A stretch of DNA of 38,093 nt from a virus, in the IMG/VR virus record IMGVR_UViG_3300047299_000054, positions 1 through 38,093 of that record; one strand, written 5' to 3'. Position numbers and translations under genes: made by a program. The notes under the pieces are model-generated. The model made no database searches. It had not been told where the DNA came from and was given only the letters and a program-made list of their open reading frames with translations. Positions 1,275 through 36,920 of the stretch are shown piece by piece (position 1 is the stretch's first letter; each line of letters opens with the position of its first letter).

Positions 1275-2684
1275 TTAACTTTCTAGTGACAAAATTTTCT
1301 TTTTGAGAGCTTCTGCCTTTGAATAATATTCATAGGATGCTTTCTTGTACACTTTTCTCTGATTGTATAAGTCAGATAATATTTTTTTCAAAATAGAATC
1401 TTCCTTCTTATACACTACACCGTTTTCACAAACAATTACATTTTTATCTTTGCGTTTTTCTGCAACTTTATTAGGAGTTACCTTTTCTATAAAGGCATCT
1501 GGCGAAATGTTAAACTGTCTCATAATAGAAGGGTACAGCGATGCATAGTCAAATGCAGAAACTCCTTCATAGAAACCAACCATTGGCTCTTTAACAAATG
1601 CACCGGCATATTGTGTATCTTTCTTGTTATCTTCGCGTGGTTCAGTACCAATTCTTTTATTTTCTTCAACCAACTTACGAGCAATTAACGCTTCAGTTAC
1701 TGCAACAGGAGAAGCTGCTTTATATAACGGCATTTTTGTGATTGAAGCTAACGTTAATAATACTTCCATTGATTTTAATTTTTTATCAATGTAATAAACT
1801 AACACGGAGTCGACTACGTTATAGTACACATACTTTTGAAAGTTGTCTCTATATAAATCTTGCAATGAACCGTTATACTTAATTTTATTCATTCCAAGAA
1901 CTTGGCCTGACACGTAATCTAATGCATTCGATTCTTTAACTTTAACTGATTTATCATATTTGTCGTACAGCTGCATGTAGTCAAGAATTCCCATGTGAAG
2001 TGGGCGTGAATCTTCTTGATCTAAAGCTGAAGTCATTGCAGCTTCTTTAATATCAATCTGTAAATGTTTGCAACGATTTACAATATATTGCCAGTCATAG
2101 TTAATAAAGTTCCAACCTGTCATCATTGGAAATTTAGGCATTAACTTCATTAAAAACGTATACAACATATCGTATTCAGTATTGAATTTCATATACTGAA
2201 ACGTCCATTCTGGATCAAACTTTTTAAAGTATTCATTTGTATCATCTTCAATCTTTTGAATTTGTTTTGGAGTCAAATCTTCAAGACCTAATACAATTGC
2301 CTTTTTATTAGGTGTAATGATTGAAAATGTAAGAATGCGTGATTTAGCTTCTTCAGCTCTTGGAAAACCATCTACGATTTCAGTTTCAATATCGACGAAA
2401 TATGTTTTAGGCATATTATATTCATAGATTTCTGCTTTGTCTTTTTCAGGTAAGCCATCCATGAAATAAACTAAAGAAAACTTATTGAACTGACGAGACT
2501 GCGAAAGTTTTACAGATTTACCATCCCAGTTTTTATATTCTCTATGAGCACTTCTATCTTTTGGATCGCACACATACCAATTTTTAAATTCGTTAATTGG
2601 ATAACGTTTGAAAGACACTTCACCTTCTTTGTTGTAATAGGAAACAATTACTTCCTTCTCCCTTTGCTCAATATCTAATAGCAT
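1275..2684 (-). CDS. 43: Family B DNA polymerase, N-terminal part of a split gp43-like enzyme
   Basis: A 469-aa protein aligning with the N-terminal half of T4-type DNA polymerase (about 900 aa). Visible motifs are Exo I (DIETE, D98/E100), Exo II (TGWNFINYDWQYI), Exo III (YYNVVDSVLVYYIDKK) and polymerase motif A (FDYASLYPSIMRQFNISPDAF, abbreviated FDYASLYPSIM). It stops after an NQRKVYKK helix, before motif B (K-x3-NSxYG) and motif C (YGDTDS). No C-terminal part exists between here and position 1; nrdB and nrdA follow instead. The exonuclease set is intact, so it could retain proofreading architecture, but polymerisation would need the missing half. Split gp43 genes are known in some T4-like phages. 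A homing endonuclease lies immediately upstream. A truncated pseudogene is the alternative. Confidence 0.88.
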   Translation of the reverse strand: MLLDIEQREKEVIVSYYNKEGEVSFKRYPINEFKNWYVCDPKDRSAHREYKNWDGKSVKLSQSRQFNKFSLVYFMDGLPEKDKAEIYEYNMPKTYFVDIETEIVDGFPRAEEAKSRILTFSIITPNKKAIVLGLEDLTPKQIQKIEDDTNEYFKKFDPEWTFQYMKFNTEYDMLYTFLMKLMPKFPMMTGWNFINYDWQYIVNRCKHLQIDIKEAAMTSALDQEDSRPLHMGILDYMQLYDKYDKSVKVKESNALDYVSGQVLGMNKIKYNGSLQDLYRDNFQKYVYYNVVDSVLVYYIDKKLKSMEVLLTLASITKMPLYKAASPVAVTEALIARKLVEENKRIGTEPREDNKKDTQYAGAFVKEPMVGFYEGVSAFDYASLYPSIMRQFNISPDAFIEKVTPNKVAEKRKDKNVIVCENGVVYKKEDSILKKILSDLYNQRKVYKKASYEYYSKAEALKKKILSLES

Positions 2685-2705
2685 TTATGCGTTGTTTAAA
2701 TTATG

Positions 2706-3608
2706 TTAGTTATATACAATGATTGATATTTGTTTACCCTTTTTCCATATAAATCCTGCATATTCACCTTCTTTACTATCATTTCTTTTAAATCTACCAT
2801 TAACTATATGGTTTATCATCTGCGAACTTATTCCTAGGTTAGATTGAATTTCTTCTCTATTATTCCAAACATGTATTTCGTTTCCATTTAAATCGCACTG
2901 TATTATTTGCCTATAATTTTTAACAATATGTTTAGATGGATTTTTTTGAGTTCCAGTTTTTTTATAAATCCTAGGTTTAGATTGAATTAATTGATTTACG
3001 ATTTCATTAAAAGACCATCTAAATCCTGCGGCATAGTTTCTATTACCGGAAGCCGCGGAATGTATGTTTCCAACTGAAGAATAATTTAATGCTTCGTTTG
3101 CGGCATATACGCTTTGAAAGGATTGAATATACTCCCCTTCCTTATTAAACATATAAACTGGAACTCTTCCCTTTAATCCAGTTTTAGGATTGTCATGTTG
3201 TACACAATATTCTTTGATTTCTTTTTTTGATAATAATCTATAATTAACCGCATTAGATTTTATAGGTTCTGCCAAAGAATCTCGTATTTCATTATATTTA
3301 GTTTGAATATCATTATCTAAAATATTTGCCATTTTATTAAAATACTCTTTATGCAATAATTTCCTAAGTTCTATCCCTTCTTCATATCTTCCAGAACGCA
3401 TATACCATACTAATTTGTCTTGAAAATTACCATAAATTTTCCATAACAACCAATGCGCAATTTTATGTTGTCTGATGTCTAATTCTACTAAATTATCTTT
3501 TTCATCTAAACCACCTAAATATTTAGGAATAATATGATGTATTTCGGTGTGCTTTGATTTTATTTTATATTTACCTGAACAAAGATTTTCATATATTACA
3601 GAGTACAT
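2706..3608 (-). CDS. HNH homing endonuclease with NUMOD1 repeats
   Basis: A 300-aa free-standing homing endonuclease. The nuclease core is at residues 22-60: EIHHIIPKYLGG with H24/H25, then N39 and H48/H52. Two NUMOD1-like DNA-binding repeats follow, at about 153-205 (VYMFNKEGEYIQSF...) and 238-292 (IQCDLNGNEIHVW...), each with an N-x-x-I-H or N-x-I-V-N helix pattern. It lies between the dUTPase-like gene and the split polymerase gene, 21 bases before the latter. Such enzymes cut a homologous cognate site and spread their own gene; adjacency suggests gene 43 or its flank as target, which is inference. A hairpin with an embedded promoter-like motif precedes its start codon (3617-3643). Confidence 0.88.
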   Translation of the reverse strand: MYSVIYENLCSGKYKIKSKHTEIHHIIPKYLGGLDEKDNLVELDIRQHKIAHWLLWKIYGNFQDKLVWYMRSGRYEEGIELRKLLHKEYFNKMANILDNDIQTKYNEIRDSLAEPIKSNAVNYRLLSKKEIKEYCVQHDNPKTGLKGRVPVYMFNKEGEYIQSFQSVYAANEALNYSSVGNIHSAASGNRNYAAGFRWSFNEIVNQLIQSKPRIYKKTGTQKNPSKHIVKNYRQIIQCDLNGNEIHVWNNREEIQSNLGISSQMINHIVNGRFKRNDSKEGEYAGFIWKKGKQISIIVYN

Positions 3609-3616
3609 ACGATAAT

Positions 3617-3643
3617 AGGGATATATTTTTATTATATATCCCT
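3617..3643 (-). promoter_or_regulatory. Hairpin with embedded promoter-like motif before the HNH gene
   Basis: A perfect 10-bp inverted repeat (3617-3626 with 3634-3643, 7-nt loop) ends eight bases upstream of the HNH start codon. On the minus strand, GGATATATAATAAAAA (3626-3641) runs across stem and loop and looks like a phage -10/late-promoter element. The same 16 bases occur before the GIY-YIG endonuclease. Read-through RNA would fold and hide the ribosome-binding region; RNA started at the embedded motif would lack the 5' arm and be open. This mirrors T4 I-TevI control; function here is inferred. Confidence 0.6.
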
Positions 3644-3669
3644 AAGTTAAATGAAAATTTGATTGATTA

Positions 3670-4137
3670 TTAATATCCGTCTCTTTGCCTTTGCTTATTG
3701 GCTTCAGCCTTTGCAAAATAGTAATTATAAGCTGTTTTAGCATCTAAGCCAATTGAAGCTGCATAATTAATAAAGAAGTGGAGAATATCAACCCATTCCA
3801 TATACAATTCTTTCTTATCATTTTCAGATAGGTCAGATATTTTTAGGGTTTCATACTTTGAAAAGTCTTTTTTCCAGTATTTCCAAACTGCATTGCCAGA
3901 ACCATCTTTAATTCCTCCTAAAGCATCTGTCATTTCATGAATCTCATCAACTACAGCATGTGTATTAACATGCCAGAAGTTCATAATTTCACGAATTGTC
4001 ATGTTTTCAAAATTAAACCCGTAAGTTTTTTCTTGCATCTCTTTCTGATGTTCCATAATATCAGCTAGATGTGTTGTAGATTTGTCATAAAAATCCTGGA
4101 CTTCTAAGTCCTTGCATTCATTGTCTATATTTGCCAT
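3670..4137 (-). CDS. dUTPase-like all-alpha NTP pyrophosphohydrolase (MazG/dimeric dUTPase superfamily)
   Basis: A 155-aa all-helical protein with the metal-binding pattern of dimeric dUTPases: an acidic helix (AVVDEIHEMTDALGG), a following WKYWKKD segment, an ExxD helix (EWVDILHFFINYAA) and the C-terminal block YYFAKAEANKQRQRDGY, where K, N and R residues contact nucleotide in the family. It probably hydrolyses dUTP to dUMP and pyrophosphate, keeping uracil out of phage DNA and feeding dTMP synthesis. This fits its position near the nrd genes. A broader MazG-like dNTP specificity cannot be excluded. The HNH gene downstream separates it from the polymerase. Confidence 0.78.
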   Translation of the reverse strand: MANIDNECKDLEVQDFYDKSTTHLADIMEHQKEMQEKTYGFNFENMTIREIMNFWHVNTHAVVDEIHEMTDALGGIKDGSGNAVWKYWKKDFSKYETLKISDLSENDKKELYMEWVDILHFFINYAASIGLDAKTAYNYYFAKAEANKQRQRDGY

Positions 4138-8248: not shown

Positions 8249-10870
8249 TTACCAAGCAATGTTTAAGTTATCTAACTTAGCGATTCTTTCTTTAATATAG
8301 ATTGCTTTTTGTTTAGCTTGTTTTTCATAATAACCTCCACCTTCTTGTTCACCTTCATTTTTATATCTAGCGTATTCGGTGTAATCTGATATTAGATTAT
8401 TCATAAAGTTAGTAGCATCTCTTAAAGTAACTTCTCTACCGTCTGGTGCATTACCTAATTTCATTTCACCATACTTTGTAAATTGTTTACCTTGAACTGC
8501 CTTAGAAATTAAATCTGAACATTTTAAGATTGCTTTTTCTACTTTACCATCTAAATCATCATTCATGATTCTAGTAGCTAAAATACTTTTGTATCTTGCA
8601 ATGTTTTCTTCTTTGAATGATTTAGCATCTTTTAATGCAGTAGCTCCGGCCTGTGCAGCAGCTCTTGCAGCTCTAATACCTTCGGTGCTATATTTTTGTC
8701 TTACAACTTCTAAAGGTAAAACGTAAGCTACGTCAGATACTTCAGAAATTCTTTTTACGTTTGAAAGACCAGTTGCATCCCAGCTTCTGTATTTCTTACC
8801 GATACCTGCGGTATCAACGACATTACCATCTTTACCTACATTCTTTAAAGTATATCCTTTAGATGTTGAGTATCTACCCATCCAAGAAACTCCAAAGAAT
8901 TCATTTTGACCATTTGCGATTGCTAATAAAGAATTAGCTGGAATAGTTTTATTTGAATAGTACGCATCTGCTGGCGCATGAGGATTTGCTTTCTCGTTTC
9001 TAGAAACATAGAATACAATAGCTGAACCCAAATCTTTAGATTTATATGCAGCGCTAGGCGACATTTCAATAAAATCAGCATCTTCAATTTTATCTAAAGC
9101 AACTTTAGTATAGTTATAGAACGCTTTAAATAAATCTTTAGGTGCAAATCTTAAATCAATGAAACCCGATAAGATTGATGAAGTTAACGCCTCAGCTACG
9201 AACTCGTTGCTTTCGTTTAATTTAAATTCAACGAATTCAACAAATGATTCGTAGATAAATTTGTTCTCCATTGTTATATTATTATTTTTAATACTTTCTG
9301 ATACATGTGTGATTGACTTTAGGATTCTCTGACCATTTTTAGAAAGAGCAACTTTATCTTCACCAATATTAAAGAATTCAGCGTTTCTTCTTAACCATCT
9401 CTTAGAGTCTTCAGTTAAACCAGAAACTAATTGATCGAAATCTTCTTTAGTTAATTCACCATCTTTTAATGCTTCGATGATTTTATTTCTAATTGCGGCG
9501 TGTTTTCCAACAGTTCTAGCTGGATAATTATTAGTGTATTGTCTTTTTAAAGTGATTTTAGATTCATTAATTTCAACCGATTCTTTAATACCTAATTCTT
9601 TTAAAGACTTAACTTGCTTACCTTTTTCTTCTCCATCATTTTCATCTGTATGCCATAAAAGACCTGCTTTAATTAATCTTTTATAAATTTCAGCTTTAAC
9701 CAAATCAAAATCAATTGAATCACTTGAATTTTCCCATGTTTCTTCAACGTACTCTGGATCAATCCATCCAAATCCTTGCTTAATGTTCTTAACCATATCT
9801 GCAAAATCTTTCTCGAATTGTTTTACGGCAGCTTCGTTAAGTTCTAAAGATTCTTTAATAGGTTTTTTTAATCCCTTAATGAAATCTTCTACAGATGAAT
9901 GGCTTTTACCATAAATTTCATTTGGAGTTACTGCATGATTTACAACAGAACCATCATCATAAATATTATATGAACCGCCGTCATACTCTTCACCATCATA
10001 ATCCAAATCAAATGAATCTTCTGCCAAAGTTTTTAAATTAACTGTAACTTTTGCGCCTTCGGCTTTAGACATTGCTTTTGCTAGTGTCTCAGCTACTTTT
10101 TTAGTTTGAGCTTTTGTTAAACCGGCTGGAGCACCAAATTTAGAAGCTTCTGAAACTTCTTCAGATTCATTAAATTGTTGAATGTCAGAATATTTGAATT
10201 CAAATTCATCACCATCTGAATTTAAAGCTTTGATCGTATCTTTTCCCCACATTGCAGCATTATCATCGTTGTTGCTGTCAGGATTATAAATGATGTACTG
10301 TTTACCCTTTACAATGATTTCAGCATCATCTAACTTAGAAATTAATTTAAGTAATTGATCTTTTGAATACTTACCTTCTAAAACTTCTTCGACTGATTCT
10401 TTAACTAAATCTGAAAGATACATTCCGTTTTCTTCTCCAGTTTTAGTGTCTTCTAATTTAGCTTTACCACCAGAGATGCTAATAACTTTCCAGGTTTGTG
10501 TTGGGTCTTCACCTACAAATTTTCTAGAAACAATATCTCCAACTTTAATGCTACCTTCTGAAACTTCTTCAACTGATTCTTCAATTTTCTTAGCAGCTAA
10601 TTTAGGATCTTTCTTAGCAACGTTGTCTGTGTAAGAACCATCACCCCAAAACGCAACAATAGCATCAGTATCTGCGGTTGAATGGAATCCAGAACCAGCA
10701 TTAAAAACGTCTACGAACTGTAAACTTTTTTTGTTTTTAATCAAATCCTTAGCAAAATCAATAGCTTGCTTTTGGTTATTAAACTTTTTAGAAGCTCTTA
10801 CTCCATCAGAATAATGAACCTCGAAAGCTTCGTTTAGATTTTTTTCATTTAAGAACTCGTTAAAATTCAT
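8249..10870 (-). CDS. Modular polyprotein-like protein with repeated protease-site-like linkers
   Basis: An 873-aa protein. It opens with a capsid-targeting-like MNFNEFLNEKNLNEA and contains several small acidic alpha/beta modules separated by near-repeats: ESVEEVSEG (98-106), ESVEEVLEG (158-166), ESEEVSEA (235-242), ESLELNEA (340-346) and ESVEINES (430-437), with further LNES (551-554) and VAEA (558-561). Each linker ends in (I/L/V)-x-E before A, G or S, the cleavage signature of T4 gp21-type prohead proteases. At residue 534 a second targeting-like start occurs (MENKFIYESF...). The C-terminal 300 residues form a larger unrecognised domain. Likely a head-internal or scaffold-related polyprotein; activity of any module is unknown. 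Confidence 0.72.
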   Translation of the reverse strand: MNFNEFLNEKNLNEAFEVHYSDGVRASKKFNNQKQAIDFAKDLIKNKKSLQFVDVFNAGSGFHSTADTDAIVAFWGDGSYTDNVAKKDPKLAAKKIEESVEEVSEGSIKVGDIVSRKFVGEDPTQTWKVISISGGKAKLEDTKTGEENGMYLSDLVKESVEEVLEGKYSKDQLLKLISKLDDAEIIVKGKQYIIYNPDSNNDDNAAMWGKDTIKALNSDGDEFEFKYSDIQQFNESEEVSEASKFGAPAGLTKAQTKKVAETLAKAMSKAEGAKVTVNLKTLAEDSFDLDYDGEEYDGGSYNIYDDGSVVNHAVTPNEIYGKSHSSVEDFIKGLKKPIKESLELNEAAVKQFEKDFADMVKNIKQGFGWIDPEYVEETWENSSDSIDFDLVKAEIYKRLIKAGLLWHTDENDGEEKGKQVKSLKELGIKESVEINESKITLKRQYTNNYPARTVGKHAAIRNKIIEALKDGELTKEDFDQLVSGLTEDSKRWLRRNAEFFNIGEDKVALSKNGQRILKSITHVSESIKNNNITMENKFIYESFVEFVEFKLNESNEFVAEALTSSILSGFIDLRFAPKDLFKAFYNYTKVALDKIEDADFIEMSPSAAYKSKDLGSAIVFYVSRNEKANPHAPADAYYSNKTIPANSLLAIANGQNEFFGVSWMGRYSTSKGYTLKNVGKDGNVVDTAGIGKKYRSWDATGLSNVKRISEVSDVAYVLPLEVVRQKYSTEGIRAARAAAQAGATALKDAKSFKEENIARYKSILATRIMNDDLDGKVEKAILKCSDLISKAVQGKQFTKYGEMKLGNAPDGREVTLRDATNFMNNLISDYTEYARYKNEGEQEGGGYYEKQAKQKAIYIKERIAKLDNLNIAW

Positions 10871-21156: not shown

Positions 21157-21760
21157 TGTGCTTACAATTATCGAAATGATAACGCTTCATATTCTGTTTA
21201 CCTATTTTATCGCAATGTGGACACTTTGTTTCTTCATAAAATCTATTCTTAGCTGAATCTGACATTAATGATTTTGTTAAATCATTTCTTTTAATACCTG
21301 TTAGCTTCTTTGAAATTTTATCTCGATTTTCGTCACTTATCATTTTACCGAAATTAGGATTGTTCGAACCTATTTTGGCAGTTGACATTTTTTGTTTGGA
21401 TTCTGTATTATGTGTTCTACCATAAAAAGGATTTTTTTCACCTGACATTGATTTTTTCATAGTGTCTTTAAATTCTTTATTATATAAAGAACTATTTCCT
21501 CCGTATCTTAAGTTATATCCTATTTCTGGATTGGCTGAATCGTAATATTGAATCCAATAAGCTTCTCTTAAATCTAATTCCTCAATCGTATTGCATTCTT
21601 CTATTAAATCTTTTACAAAATTTTCTTTGCCATATATGTATATTTCTCCTACAATTTTCTTACCTGAACCCATATATGATTTGGATTCGTTAAATGATTT
21701 TTTAGATTGACCTATGTAAATCATTCCGTTTACTTTATTAGTTATTTTGTAGATGTACAT
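21140..21760 (-). CDS. GIY-YIG homing endonuclease with NUMOD3 motifs
   Basis: A 206-aa protein. The GIY-YIG core begins MYIYKITNKVNGMIYIGQS, with YIY (2-4) and YIG (15-17) in family positions, then the catalytic glutamate in LREAYWIQYYDS and GYNLRYGG. Two NUMOD3-type repeats follow (GEKNPFYGRTHN and GSNNPNFGKMIS), then a C-terminal C-x2-C...H-x4-C zinc finger (CPHCDK...YHFDNCKHNG). It is inserted between the gp32 and primase genes, its 3' end overlapping the primase start by 17 bases. A hairpin with an embedded promoter-like motif precedes it. The recognition site may lie in gp32 or primase alleles lacking it. Confidence 0.9.
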   Translation of the reverse strand: MYIYKITNKVNGMIYIGQSKKSFNESKSYMGSGKKIVGEIYIYGKENFVKDLIEECNTIEELDLREAYWIQYYDSANPEIGYNLRYGGNSSLYNKEFKDTMKKSMSGEKNPFYGRTHNTESKQKMSTAKIGSNNPNFGKMISDENRDKISKKLTGIKRNDLTKSLMSDSAKNRFYEETKCPHCDKIGKQNMKRYHFDNCKHNGKNK

Positions 21761-21764
21761 ACGC

Positions 21765-21795
21765 TTTATGTGTTTTTATTATATATCCACATAAA
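21765..21795 (-). promoter_or_regulatory. Hairpin with embedded promoter-like motif before the GIY-YIG gene
   Basis: Perfect 8-bp stem (TTTATGTG at 21765-21772 with CACATAAA at 21788-21795) with a 15-nt loop. On the minus strand the loop and stem edge carry GGATATATAATAAAAA (21773-21788), identical to the motif before the HNH gene. The stem ends four bases before the ATG. The layout fits RNA-structure blocking of translation in read-through transcripts and open RNA from the internal promoter. Confidence 0.6.
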
Positions 21796-21800
21796 AATAG

Positions 21801-21834
21801 AATTGAACCTATTGTGGTAATAATAGGTTCAATT
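21801..21834 (-). terminator. Terminator after the gp32-like gene
   Basis: Perfect 13-bp inverted repeat (AATTGAACCTATT with its complement) around an 8-nt loop, followed on the minus strand by CTATTTTTATG. It lies 28 bases beyond the gp32-like stop codon. It should separate abundant gp32 mRNA from the endonuclease-primase genes downstream. The T tract is interrupted, so efficiency is uncertain. Confidence 0.75.
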
Positions 21835-21862: not shown

Positions 21863-22816
21863 TTAGAGGTCAAGGTCATTCAAAAATGCATCTAAATCGT
21901 CACCTGAATCTGAATCTATGCTAACTGAAGCTGAAGCAGCTGGAGCTGAACTTTCATTTGTACCGAAATCCATATCGAAATCATCGCTTGCAGCAGGAGC
22001 TGGGGCTTTAGCAGTAGCTTTGGCGCTTGAAGCTTTTTTAGTGTTTACAATTTCGTCCATTGCTGAACCTGGATTTAAGTACTGACGTAAGATTGAATTA
22101 ACGAAATCTCTTGCTTCATCATCCCATGCTTTGAACTCGTATGGTTCTAATGATGGTGCTTTCTCTAATTCTTCTTTGATAACAGTCATGTTTTCTTTAG
22201 TTTTTTCAGCTGGTTTGCCGTTAACTAATACCGCACTCTTAGAAGCAGAGAATTTAGATTTATCGTAATTGTTGAAGTCACCTTGACGAGTGATAATTAA
22301 CTCAAAGTTTTTACCTTCAAAAAGATCGAAGATTTGAGTTGGTTCACCGAATGCCGGTTTTAATTCTTCATCAATTTTTTCTTTGATTTTGTAACCAAAT
22401 TTGAATACTTTATATGTACCTTCGAATTCAGGGAATTGAGGGTCTTTAATAACTTTCACTAGAGCGTAGTATTGCTCACGTCTCTTAAGTTTTTCGCTCA
22501 TCTTACGATCCACTGCTGAATCAGATTTACGTAACTTAAAGAAAGCATCTGCAATTGGGCACTTTTCACCGATTGAAGCTGGCGAGTCAACTAACTTACC
22601 TTCTCCACTGGCATCTGTTAACCAATGTACATACTTTTTAACTAGTGAATTACGGGGATTTGCTGGGTTTGGAACGAAACGAATAAGTGCTTTGTAAGTT
22701 CCATCTTTGCCTTGATCGGCGGTTGGTTTGTAAACATCATTACTAGAAGAGGATGCTTGTGTTTCATGAGTGTCAACATCATTGACCCCAAGATTAAAAA
22801 TGTCAAAATCTGCCAT
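21863..22816 (-). CDS. 32: T4 gp32-like single-stranded DNA-binding protein
   Basis: A 317-aa protein (T4 gp32 is 301 aa). The core aligns through LIRFVPNP, EKCPIADAFFKL (T4 DSCPVCQYISK region), REQYYALVKVIKDP (T4 TSYWANILVVKDP), KVFKFGYKIKEKI and FNNYDKSKF. The C-terminal tail is Ser/Ala/Asp-rich and ends DDLDAFLNDLDL, the acidic protein-interaction tail typical of gp32. It coats ssDNA and coordinates primase, polymerase and UvsY. Two differences: the T4 zinc ligand cysteines are largely absent (one Cys remains), and the N-terminal KRKST cooperativity motif is not seen. A strong terminator follows. Confidence 0.9.
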   Translation of the reverse strand: MADFDIFNLGVNDVDTHETQASSSSNDVYKPTADQGKDGTYKALIRFVPNPANPRNSLVKKYVHWLTDASGEGKLVDSPASIGEKCPIADAFFKLRKSDSAVDRKMSEKLKRREQYYALVKVIKDPQFPEFEGTYKVFKFGYKIKEKIDEELKPAFGEPTQIFDLFEGKNFELIITRQGDFNNYDKSKFSASKSAVLVNGKPAEKTKENMTVIKEELEKAPSLEPYEFKAWDDEARDFVNSILRQYLNPGSAMDEIVNTKKASSAKATAKAPAPAASDDFDMDFGTNESSAPAASASVSIDSDSGDDLDAFLNDLDL

Positions 22817-32107: not shown

Positions 32108-35100
32108 TTATGCTATTATTTTAGTAACGACATAACACATATAGTTATAGCCATATCTCTTGTTATATATTAATCTAAATCCTAGGCGGTCTGTGACAAA
32201 CGGTTCAATTTGAAAATTGCTCTGTTTAGTAAAGACTGTTAAATCAATTTGACCTGGGTTGTCAATGTTTAAAAACTCAGAAGATTGCTGTTTAGTTTCT
32301 TTGGTGTAAACGTCAATCTGATTTATAATAAATCTTGGAACAACATTCCAATCAACATATTGTTTTAAATCATCCTCGGTTGTTGTTAAATCTCCATAGG
32401 AATGAGCTGCATCGACATATTTGTCAAAAATAGGTTTAATTCCCTGATCTAACAATTCTTGTAAAACTGCTTGTTTAATATAAAAATCAGCATACAACTT
32501 ATCTTCAGTTTCAAACCAAACTATAGATGTATTTGCAATTTGATTAATTCTCGTGTTATTTAATTCTTCTAAAGATTTAACGCTAATCGAATTGTATTTT
32601 GCAATCTGATATGAATCTTCAACTTTCATAATGGTTGAAGCCAAGAAACTTTTGTGTTCAATTGGATTCAAGGTACCGTACACCGATTCACGTGAATTGT
32701 TAGCGTTATACTTAGTGTAATATGTTGTTGAATATTTAGAATCAAATACGTTTATATCTTTTTTGTCTATTGCAACTTCTCCAATCTTTGGATACAACGG
32801 AGCTTTATCAGTTGAACTAGACAATTTAAGAGTAGAGTCTGGCGCGTTTGGATTTACTTTATGATAGAACATATTTTTAATAATTCCATAGTTTGTGCCA
32901 AGAAATGGAGCGTATGTGTTAAACGCTATTCCAGTTCTATTAAATTTATCGTAGATCTTTTTATTTCTTAAACTTACGACTGTATCTACCGATTTGTATT
33001 CACTATAAATATCGGTGAAGTCTACGATATCATTTACAATCGGGTTATAATATTCGTTAATTCTTCTAAGTTGTACGTAATATGCGTCATCTCTGGTTAC
33101 AACTATTTTACCAACCTCACCAGATGTAATCTTGTAAGACAGTGGCTTATCTGGGTCAACTGCATATTTTAAAACTGATGGCTTTATAACAGGAGTACCA
33201 TCATCTAAATGTAAACTAAATTCATTTATAGCATGTGTTCCATCAGATTTAATCGTAGTATACGTTACTTCAGGCGAATACTTTTCAAAAAGTTTTTTGA
33301 AATTAGGAGCCTTGATATTTTCTATCAATTCTTTTAAGCCATTATAACCACCATCTAAATATGTGTAATCAATATTTATTTGTTGAAATGAACTAATAGA
33401 AGTAACGCCAGTCCACTGTAAACCAGGACCGTATGTTGAATCCCATTCTACAGGATAGCCAGCAACTGAAATACTAGAATCTCCATGAACTCCTAATACT
33501 TTTAATGCTTTTTTGTCATATTGACCAGAAACCGGATTTAACCAATCAAATAATAAATATGAGTAGCTACCATTTTGTGTAATGGTCAATTGCTTCATAA
33601 ATTCCGGAGAGTTTCCATCATTATCTAAAATACCATTTATATAAACAGTTCCAGTTGACCAGTTTGCATTTCTTAAATCTAATGCACCATTAATTTTAAC
33701 ATCAATGTAATTTTGATTCAATCTTGCATGCACTAACTCATACAGAACTTTTCTAGAAAGTTCTTTAACATCATTTTCTTGAAGTTTTAAATTAATATAA
33801 ATGCAAACAAATTTAAATGCATCATTTTTAATAACTTCAATTTCAACCGTGTTTTTATTTGCATTATTTTGCAAGTTTATAACGCTTGCAAATTTATAAC
33901 CGTTAACTGAAGTGTCAAAATTAAAATCAGTTGGATTTAATCTAACAGTTTCTTTTCTAGATTTATATGTGTATTTAATACCTCTAAACGTGGTGGTTGC
34001 AAAATCATGCGTGCTTCCGCCATCAAATCTGGTATATAGTTTTCTTGTTTTATGCTTTACAAATTCTTTAGACTCTCTAACGAATAAATCATTTACGTTT
34101 AAAGTTGGGTTTCCGCTAGGTATACTAGATAAATTACCAACAAATTGTAAAATCAATCCATTTGTTAAAATTGGAGTATTCGGTAAAGTAACTACAGTTC
34201 CATCTAATTTAGTGATCGTATTACCAGAAATCAGAGATGATGGAATAGGATTAGTAAAATAAATAAGAGTGTTATCATATCCTGGCGTATTATCAACCAC
34301 AATGGCTTTAATAGCAGATATGTCCGAATACATACCGTCCCACACGAAAAACTTATCAAAATAGTTTTCTGTCGTACTCTTTAAATTAGCAGCGGTTAAA
34401 TTTCCTTGGTTTTCATAATCAATATACCCGTTTAAAGTATGTGTATTTTCCGGAAAAGCTCTAAACACCGAAGGAATTCCATTAATATGAAAGTGTTCCA
34501 TGTTATATTCTAATGGATCTCTTCCTCTACCATCTTGTAAAACCGGAGACATGTTATCAGAGCCAAAGGCTTCATTAACATTTAATGTGTAAGGTTTCAT
34601 TCTTGCATTAAAAGAATCTTTAATTGCAAATTTATTAATGTGAGGTACTAACCTACTATAAAGAGCTGTTTCTTTTAATTCGTTTTCAGCTAATCTATCG
34701 TATTCTGAGTTAATTTTAAGGTCTTTAATAACTAAATCTGCATCTTCATTTAAGTTAGTGATGCTAGCTCTTTTATTAACAATCTCTGACTCTAACACTG
34801 GGAAGAGAGTTGGATAATATTCTTCAGAAATTTCATAGAATCTAGATCCGCATGCTTCAGCGTATTTTGCATAATACGGTATACCACTAATAAAGTTTTC
34901 AAACGCTAATTCATTTAATTCTGAATTTGAAGTGTTATAAAAATCAAAATCAAAATCCTTTAATGAGTATGCACTAAATTTACCATATTGCACTAAATAA
35001 TCTTTAAAAATATTTACAGTTTTAGAATTAGGAATGTTTAATGGTTTTTCTAAAACAATACGATAAACTGAATTATCGTAAGGTTCTTCTAGAATCTGCT

Positions 35101-36865
35101 TTATCTTAACAAATTCTTTTGATGTATTGCTTTGTAAATATTTACCGACCAGGTCGATTCCGTTTTTAAGTTCAGTTTTCTTAACAATTAAAACTTCGTT
35201 CTTATTTCCTCCACCGGTAGATGTCCAAATAGACCACTCTGTAAAATCGGTATTTACGCCAGCCGGAACCAATGAATTATCTAATCCAACGTTATTATGA
35301 ATGGCTATGTTAAATTGAACAAAATCTGAAATATTATTAGTTAAAACGCCAAAGGCGGTTAATTTCCTAGTGTTACCGTATGCGTAATCTTCAATAATAA
35401 CTCTTTCACCAATGGATTTTGCAGTGTAAGGTATGTCTGAATGGTCAATTGCACCGGCTAAAGCTCCTGCAATATCTTGTAAATTGCCGACAGCTGAATA
35501 TAAATTGCCATTAAATTTACCCTTAGGTAATGAAATATCTGCTACAAATTCAAATTCATGTAATTTATATGAATGAGCTTTTAATTCAGACAACGGCGCT
35601 AAAAATAATTTATCTGCATTATGTGGTGCAACGCTGATTGTAAAATCAATTACGTCCTTTATGTTAACCGTAAATTCTTCTAATGTAATTGAACCTTCTT
35701 TAACCTTTTCTGTAAAAATAGATGCTTTGAATTTATTCAAAGATACCGGTAATTCAGACGTATTATCGAAAATAGAATTATTTCTAATATGAAAGAATTG
35801 ATTATCATTGGATTTAATCCAGTTAAGTGTAGGAAGCTTTAAATCTTCTACGTTAATGAACATATCTTGGTGAGTTAAACCGCCCGAAAGATCATAGGAT
35901 GTGATGATAGTGTCTTTTTCAATCTTAATCAATTCAGCATTATCATTGTTAACAATATCATGCACCCCAAATTGGCCTTCTTCGATTGCATCTACATAAA
36001 GTCCAAAATATCTATAAATTTTATAATTATCTGCAGACTTATCATCGAATAAAAATTCTAAATTAATTAAATTAGCAGACGCAACCTGGTTTCTTTTAAA
36101 ACCATCGGTGATTAACGTATTGTTTAAAATTTCAATTTTATCTTTAAATAAATCAGGATTAATAAATTCTTTTTTGCTAACAAATCCACCTTTTATAACG
36201 TCGATCCCGTTGTATATTGTTCCTTGATCACTTGCGTAGTTTTGGAAAATAGATGCTTTTGGAAAATTATCATCATTTACATGAGATCTTAAATATTTTC
36301 CAAGATTAGAATCTTTAGTTAAATCAAACGTTTTAATTAGAGTTGCTGAATTTAATAATTCCAACACTCTAGAATTTTGACCAGCATTTGAAGAATCATA
36401 AGACTTTTTATAATCAGTTTCTTTAACTCTATAAATTACAAAATAAGAAGGAATATTCTTTTCTAACCAAATCGGAGCAAAGAACTTGTATTGCTCATCA
36501 TACATTTTAGTAGAATTAAATGAAGCCCCGTAATGATATTGATCTTCAAATTGCAAAGAATAATCTCCATACACTGAAATATCTGAACTTTTTCTAGCAA
36601 CATCAAATGTTATGTCACTTGATAATTGACCAAAAAATCTGGCAACATCATGTGAATACGCACCGTTTGCGTTGATTGGAAATTTCTTATAATTAGACGT
36701 AGAAAGTGTATTGTTTGCTGGAATAGCATCCATAAACAATGAACCCTGTGAATCAACCACTAATTTAATATTAGTGCTTAATTTTGGGTTGGTTCTTAAT
36801 AAACCAAATGAAATGTCATCAATTTTGTTTTCGACTAAATCGAAATTGGGTGTTAATAAGCTCAT
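32108..36865 (-). CDS. Very large virion structural protein, 1585 aa
   Basis: The largest gene here. It starts MSLLTPNFDLVENKIDDISF and has a notable FFAPIWLEKNIPSYFVIYRV block (about 134-153), then many beta-rich stretches with aromatic residues and regular Asn/Asp/Lys loops. No catalytic, membrane or signal motif is visible. It sits directly before the two fibre genes, in the place of a large baseplate wedge or fibre-attachment protein; I cannot align it with T4 gp7, gp10 or gp34. A GATATATAAAT element lies 25 bases upstream, and a GAAGGA sequence before the ATG may be a weak ribosome-binding site. Confidence 0.7.
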   Translation of the reverse strand: MSLLTPNFDLVENKIDDISFGLLRTNPKLSTNIKLVVDSQGSLFMDAIPANNTLSTSNYKKFPINANGAYSHDVARFFGQLSSDITFDVARKSSDISVYGDYSLQFEDQYHYGASFNSTKMYDEQYKFFAPIWLEKNIPSYFVIYRVKETDYKKSYDSSNAGQNSRVLELLNSATLIKTFDLTKDSNLGKYLRSHVNDDNFPKASIFQNYASDQGTIYNGIDVIKGGFVSKKEFINPDLFKDKIEILNNTLITDGFKRNQVASANLINLEFLFDDKSADNYKIYRYFGLYVDAIEEGQFGVHDIVNNDNAELIKIEKDTIITSYDLSGGLTHQDMFINVEDLKLPTLNWIKSNDNQFFHIRNNSIFDNTSELPVSLNKFKASIFTEKVKEGSITLEEFTVNIKDVIDFTISVAPHNADKLFLAPLSELKAHSYKLHEFEFVADISLPKGKFNGNLYSAVGNLQDIAGALAGAIDHSDIPYTAKSIGERVIIEDYAYGNTRKLTAFGVLTNNISDFVQFNIAIHNNVGLDNSLVPAGVNTDFTEWSIWTSTGGGNKNEVLIVKKTELKNGIDLVGKYLQSNTSKEFVKIKQILEEPYDNSVYRIVLEKPLNIPNSKTVNIFKDYLVQYGKFSAYSLKDFDFDFYNTSNSELNELAFENFISGIPYYAKYAEACGSRFYEISEEYYPTLFPVLESEIVNKRASITNLNEDADLVIKDLKINSEYDRLAENELKETALYSRLVPHINKFAIKDSFNARMKPYTLNVNEAFGSDNMSPVLQDGRGRDPLEYNMEHFHINGIPSVFRAFPENTHTLNGYIDYENQGNLTAANLKSTTENYFDKFFVWDGMYSDISAIKAIVVDNTPGYDNTLIYFTNPIPSSLISGNTITKLDGTVVTLPNTPILTNGLILQFVGNLSSIPSGNPTLNVNDLFVRESKEFVKHKTRKLYTRFDGGSTHDFATTTFRGIKYTYKSRKETVRLNPTDFNFDTSVNGYKFASVINLQNNANKNTVEIEVIKNDAFKFVCIYINLKLQENDVKELSRKVLYELVHARLNQNYIDVKINGALDLRNANWSTGTVYINGILDNDGNSPEFMKQLTITQNGSYSYLLFDWLNPVSGQYDKKALKVLGVHGDSSISVAGYPVEWDSTYGPGLQWTGVTSISSFQQINIDYTYLDGGYNGLKELIENIKAPNFKKLFEKYSPEVTYTTIKSDGTHAINEFSLHLDDGTPVIKPSVLKYAVDPDKPLSYKITSGEVGKIVVTRDDAYYVQLRRINEYYNPIVNDIVDFTDIYSEYKSVDTVVSLRNKKIYDKFNRTGIAFNTYAPFLGTNYGIIKNMFYHKVNPNAPDSTLKLSSSTDKAPLYPKIGEVAIDKKDINVFDSKYSTTYYTKYNANNSRESVYGTLNPIEHKSFLASTIMKVEDSYQIAKYNSISVKSLEELNNTRINQIANTSIVWFETEDKLYADFYIKQAVLQELLDQGIKPIFDKYVDAAHSYGDLTTTEDDLKQYVDWNVVPRFIINQIDVYTKETKQQSSEFLNIDNPGQIDLTVFTKQSNFQIEPFVTDRLGFRLIYNKRYGYNYMCYVVTKIIA

Positions 36866-36890
36866 TAAACGTTTCCTTCTATTTGTTGTT

Positions 36891-36901
36891 ATTTATATAT
36901 C
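36891..36901 (-). promoter_or_regulatory. Candidate phage late-type promoter element
   Basis: GATATATAAATA on the minus strand, containing TATAAATA (the T4 late-promoter consensus), 25 bases before the ATG of the 1585-aa structural gene. The spacing suits a late promoter with a short leader. No -35-like element is required for T4-type late promoters. Confidence 0.5.
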
Positions 36902-36920
36902 ACAAATAGTAAGGAACATC

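Follow-up and report, generated by a model that had tools for sequence, protein, structure and literature searches.

Putative late promoters inside start-site hairpins before homing endonuclease genes of an uncultured T4-like phage group

Why should two unrelated homing endonuclease genes of one phage carry the same 16 bases, set in a hairpin directly before the start codon? In the window (the whole stretch of 38,093 nt analysed here), GGATATATAATAAAAA is present in two exact copies, one before an HNH gene and one before a GIY-YIG gene (Table 1), and no further match with 0–2 mismatches was found elsewhere in it. As the original prediction had stated, both copies lie in hairpins that end a few bases before the ATG. 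We place the ends 7 nt before the ATG at 3608 for the HNH gene and 4 nt before that at 21760 for the GIY-YIG gene, and find the two stems to be unrelated in sequence. The prediction had also proposed a control logic like that of I-TevI in T4, obtained by convergence or by shared capture of a regulatory cassette. We consider it probable (roughly 70%) that the timing is indeed I-TevI-like, with a late promoter in the 5' half of a blocking hairpin, so that early read-through RNA would be silenced and late RNA translated.

Table 1. Positions of the genes, promoter elements, hairpins and predicted leaders in the window.
Feature	Position	Strand	Remarks
N-terminal DNA polymerase gene	1275..2684	-	lies 3' of the HNH insert
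Free-standing HNH homing endonuclease gene, 300 aa	2706..3608	-	HNH + NUMOD1; between mazG-like and DNA polymerase genes
Predicted 20-nt late-transcript leader, HNH gene	3609..3628	-	contains the 3' arm only; deduced from the 12-nt leaderless promoters and folding
HNH-gene hairpin, 11-bp stem, loop 7	~3616..3644	-	putative late promoter in 5' arm and loop
Putative late-promoter element GGATATATAATAAAAA before HNH gene	3626..3641	-	GATATATA begins 32 nt 5' of ATG, the distance peak in relatives
MazG/dUTPase-like gene	3670..4137	-	stop abuts polymerase start in insert-free relatives
Free-standing GIY-YIG homing endonuclease gene, 206 aa	21140..21760	-	GIY-YIG + NUMOD3; between gp32 and primase
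Predicted 15-nt late-transcript leader, GIY-YIG gene	21761..21775	-	
GIY-YIG-gene hairpin, 8-bp stem	~21765..21795	-	putative late promoter in loop
Putative late-promoter element GGATATATAATAAAAA before GIY-YIG gene	21773..21788	-	GATATATA begins 27 nt 5' of ATG
Terminator-like hairpin after gp32	21801..21834	-	lies 5' of the GIY-YIG-gene hairpin
gp32 single-strand DNA-binding protein gene	21863..22816	-	Pfam gp32, 70 bits
1585-aa non-endonuclease gene	32108..36865	-	late-promoter-in-hairpin leader CTATTTGT-GATATATAAATAAC-ACAAATAG at ~36875-36912

The HNH product matches Pfam HNH with 21.4 bits (at the cut-off), NUMOD1 with 31 bits and PHROG homing endonucleases with 7e-18; the GIY-YIG product matches Pfam GIY-YIG with 25.4 bits (cut-off 22.6), NUMOD3 with 56.5 bits and PHROG with 9e-37. 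Each thus joins a nuclease domain to a NUMOD domain and sits between genes that adjoin in relatives, as do free-standing mob-like HNH and seg-like GIY-YIG homing endonucleases, respectively; cutting and inheritance as homing endonucleases are predicted for both. In three relatives without the HNH gene (L090, L311 and L323), the mazG stop lies 0–2 nt from the polymerase start, overlapping or abutting it, and the promoter and hairpin therefore belong to the insert. Many relatives likewise have no insert between gp32 and primase, and L215 has a different GIY-YIG gene there, whose start codon falls within the loop of a 9-bp hairpin and which has no visible late promoter.

Two further observations concern the mazG/polymerase locus. 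In L124 and L125-L127 (~2570-3440), the junction is occupied by an endonuclease with a GIY-YIG-type N-terminus, whose C-terminal half is 49–57% related to the HNH enzyme of the window, an apparent swap of the catalytic domain at one insertion site. The polymerase gene of the window encodes 469 aa, ends early in the polymerase domain and is followed by nrdB; as far as the fragment shows, the DNA polymerase seems to be encoded by two separate genes.

The shared 16 bases are not peculiar to endonucleases. An exact search recovered the 16-mer in at least 119 stretches of viral contigs, and among the matches listed many lie 25–37 nt 5' of the ATG of unrelated genes, without a strong hairpin. Its core GATATATA is the top enriched 8-mer upstream of genes in ~0.8 Mb of relatives, with 94 occurrences observed versus 0.5 expected (an expectation derived from coding sequence), whereas only 2 occur in antisense orientation. 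The distance from GATATATA to the ATG is bimodal in these relatives: it is either exactly 12 nt (about 15–20 genes) or falls within 24–50 nt, most often at 32. At +12, counted from the G of GATATATA, 84% of sites have an A. The 12-nt class suggests that some late mRNAs of this group are leaderless and, because it is best read in this way, we place the probable transcription start ~12 nt past the G of GATATATA. With distances of 32 and 27 nt, the elements before the HNH and GIY-YIG genes are therefore ordinary promoters of the group, and the same core precedes the window genes starting at 10870, 17866, 23123, 24248 and 36865. The 16-mer can be read as a copy of the general late promoter of a T4-like phage group. 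We call it late on account of its form, which is like T4 TATAAATA, and its position before structural-type genes; this timing is presumptive, and searching the literature for such promoters in Bacteroidota phages yielded none. A striking identity of 16 bases can, in other words, be mere promoter consensus.

This bears directly on the cassette part of the original prediction, which was not supported: a general late promoter stands at equal distance before ordinary genes that have no hairpin. Copying of one promoter-plus-hairpin unit between the two endonuclease genes could draw on the exact 16-mer and the CGTATGTAC common to both, and on GATATATAATAAAAA, which is somewhat commoner before endonucleases (3/26) than before other promoter-bearing genes (2/223). 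Yet the two leaders agree neither in their stems nor in any flanking base, unrelated genes that have no hairpin are preceded by the exact 16-mer as well, and the HNH orthologues keep the promoter but have ACATG where the window genes have CGTATG, which leaves such copying scarcely credible. As a common signal, CGTATGTAC was rejected, since it occurs at the start codon of only 2 of 26 promoter-bearing endonuclease genes (the two in the window) and is absent from the HNH orthologues; the Met-Tyr start that ATGTAY encodes is conserved in GIY-YIG endonucleases, and we therefore treat the identity as probably due to chance.

What distinguishes the endonuclease leaders, then, is the hairpin. The HNH stem TAGGGATATAT/ATATATCCCTA is a perfect 11 bp, with the promoter motif forming most of the 5' arm and the loop; its RNA folds with a minimum free energy of -13.1 kcal/mol (z -2.7), 3 of 200 shuffles were equally good, and a perfect stem of at least 11 bp is expected in 50 nt of like composition with a chance of ~0.0005. 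The hairpin is conserved, and longer, in the HNH orthologues L122 and L123 (~62% identical, same site), where stems of 14 and 17 bp with G-U pairs have folding energies of -14 and -17 kcal/mol (z -3.7 and -5.3), equalled by 0–1 of 200 shuffles. The GIY-YIG stem TTTATGTG/CACATAAA comprises 8 bp, with the promoter motif mostly in the loop; at -7.5 kcal/mol (z -1.6) and with 15 of 200 shuffles equally good, it is weak when taken alone (the chance of a perfect stem of at least 8 bp in 50 nt of like composition is ~0.026), and relatives at 36–44% identity have not kept its arms. A wider GIY-YIG search contributed a single further instance of GATATATA, in L449 (shuffle p 0.025), a thin independent replication, the other matches coming mostly from other phage groups without GATATATA. 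Near-identity DNA searches with both regions matched no named phage, and scanning the window for Rfam families and tRNAs gave no matches. As candidates for intrinsic terminators, both hairpins were set aside, being absent from the terminator scan list.

Could these inverted repeats have arisen by chance, given how AT-rich the DNA is, around late promoters of the ordinary kind, with only the promoter being of consequence? Pairing comes easily to AT-rich sequence, 15 of 200 shuffles equal the GIY-YIG stem, and about half of the promoter-bearing endonuclease genes have no significant pairing. We scored, for every promoter-bearing gene, the pairing of the segment before the putative RNA start with the leader to +15. 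Across 14 related contigs (1.58 Mb), the promoter precedes 26 of 34 homing-endonuclease genes, a set defined by phmmer similarity in which a false member or two is possible, versus 223 of 1526 others (odds ratio 19); after clustering at 60% identity, which corrects only partly for kinship, the figures are 18/23 and 111/703. Among promoter-bearing genes of the 14 contigs, the median pairing was -10.5 kcal/mol for endonucleases versus -4.8 for others (p 1.4e-6), and in the non-redundant set -10.0 versus -5.6 kcal/mol (p 0.0013), where pairing with shuffle p<0.05 was seen in 10 of 18 endonucleases and 19 of 111 others. An earlier, smaller contig set gave the same picture. This enrichment over ordinary promoter-bearing genes, the rarity of the HNH and orthologue stems among shuffles and the independent long stems at other endonucleases (L320, L299 and L123) make chance pairing unlikely. 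As for the counter-evidence that the original prediction had named, the motif does stand before ordinary genes without a hairpin, whereas the hairpin is not equally common there.

Several of the stems are long, and between different endonucleases they are unrelated in sequence. In G006 (L320), for instance, the complement of the long stem CTTTCCATGGATAT runs through the start codon, and in G042 (L299) a long stem is formed by GAGTTTGGGTTTTATTC and its complement. Since the stems are unrelated yet long, they point to a repeated origin of the structure and not to capture of one cassette; the best reading is that each probably arose separately around a standard promoter.

An inverted repeat that overlaps a promoter may also work as DNA, namely as an operator bound by the endonuclease itself (autorepression) or by another regulator. 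There is a precedent in I-TevI, which represses its own late promoter by way of an operator similar to its homing site (PMC2988022). Here, local alignment of the upstream regions with the ends of the flanking genes, the expected location of homing sites, found no similarity, and different endonucleases have unrelated stems. Relative to the window, the orthologues L122 and L123 leave the 5' arm (that is, the promoter) unchanged, and their 3'-arm changes produce G-U pairs, preserving the pairing only as sense-strand RNA. We thus regard a DNA operator as quite improbable.

I-TevI-like timing by an RNA hairpin, the preferred reading, could work as follows. The late promoter would occupy the 5' half of the inverted repeat and the leader before the ATG its 3' half. 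Read-through RNA arriving from the mazG or the gp32 side would carry both arms, fold and bury the leader or the 30S site, giving no early endonuclease, while RNA from the late promoter would start beyond the 5' arm, could not fold and would be translated. As in I-TevI-type leaders, the promoter sequence occupies the 5' arm or the loop and so precedes the 3' arm next to the start codon. The HNH gene is co-directional with mazG and polymerase. Opening the region -18..+6 at the HNH start is predicted to cost 14.5 kcal/mol in read-through RNA versus 3.7 in late RNA; the corresponding values are 4.9 versus 2.1 kcal/mol at the GIY-YIG start and 3.0 versus 2.5 kcal/mol for an ordinary gene. Early repression by the hairpin is a prediction from sequence, and we are less certain of it for the GIY-YIG gene, which is co-directional with gp32 and primase but has a weak hairpin and is preceded by a terminator-like one; such hairpins follow gp32 in several relatives, too. 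With these limits, the enrichment in relatives and the conservation in HNH orthologues support the I-TevI-like logic in two families that had been predicted.

Neither leader (AAATATATCCCTATTATCGT, AAACACATAAAGCGT) contains a GGAG-like sequence, and no Shine-Dalgarno k-mer is among the top upstream signals of the phage group (~0.8 Mb of relatives). The hairpin would therefore have to block initiation in some other way, possibly by burying a start region that is A-rich and would otherwise be open.

The 1585-aa gene in the window, located near tail-fibre genes, also has the promoter in a hairpin, with a pairing of -19.2 and an opening cost of 15.0 versus 2.1 in late RNA; its homologues in G006, G033, G034 and G027 also pair, some of them more weakly. 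The promoter-in-hairpin arrangement is not endonuclease-specific. Whether this T4-like group, translating without Shine-Dalgarno sequences, uses hairpin-buried late promoters as a general timing switch, evolved repeatedly at homing endonucleases and governing several structural-type genes as well, is, in our judgement, an even bet. Separately, a 127–134-aa gene in four relatives (L317, L331, L321 and L518) has a promoter-in-hairpin leader that is among the strongest, reaching up to -29 kcal/mol, with a long stem around the promoter and at least one C-G to G-C exchange.

As to the host, gp32 and polymerase have their closest named relatives in huge uncultured phages, followed at a greater distance by Prevotella Lak phages. 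Another strong motif upstream of genes consists of a TTTT box ~17–20 nt 5' of TATATTTAC; it was observed in G006, G033, G034, G040, G047 and G049, and was not seen upstream of window genes; we take it to resemble Bacteroidota housekeeping promoters, and it is probably the early promoter of these relatives. From this motif and the gp32 and polymerase relatives, a Bacteroidota-like host is likely.

If these readings are correct, a T4 design described for a handful of endonucleases extends to a distant group that has no Shine-Dalgarno sequence to hide, a late promoter with its start site can be deduced for uncultured phages, and the independently built hairpins offer a set in which the effect of structure on start-codon use can be tested where there is no Shine-Dalgarno pairing.

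The combination of a late promoter and a sequestering hairpin has been reviewed for I-TevI, I-TevII, I-TevIII, segB and Aeh1 mobE (PMC2988022). As in the I-TevI-type leaders, a late (or middle) promoter is placed so that early read-through RNA would fold over the initiation region and promoter-proximal RNA could not, and the design serves both GIY-YIG and HNH enzymes. Unlike the intron-borne I-TevI-type genes, which reside in group I introns, the window genes are free-standing; the hairpin of the former hides a Shine-Dalgarno sequence, which the window leaders do not have, and the promoter core is GATATATA instead of TATAAATA. T4 segB and mobE of Aeromonas phage Aeh1 (PMC2988022, PMC3014915) are likewise free-standing GIY-YIG or HNH genes with a late promoter and hairpin among phage genes, but they belong to another phage group, whereas the window genes are inserted at mazG/polymerase and gp32/primase and have no ribosome-binding sequence to hide. 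The 1585-aa gene has its counterparts in T4 gene e, with late promoters in the 5' strand of an inhibitory hairpin, and in soc, with hairpin sequestration (PMC3014915, PMC2988022): all are non-endonuclease genes with hairpin leaders, although e encodes lysozyme and soc a capsid protein, while the window gene is large and lies near tail-fibre genes. In conclusion, what we describe appears to be a known T4 regulatory design in a distant phage group, with a different promoter core, different insertion sites and no Shine-Dalgarno sequence.
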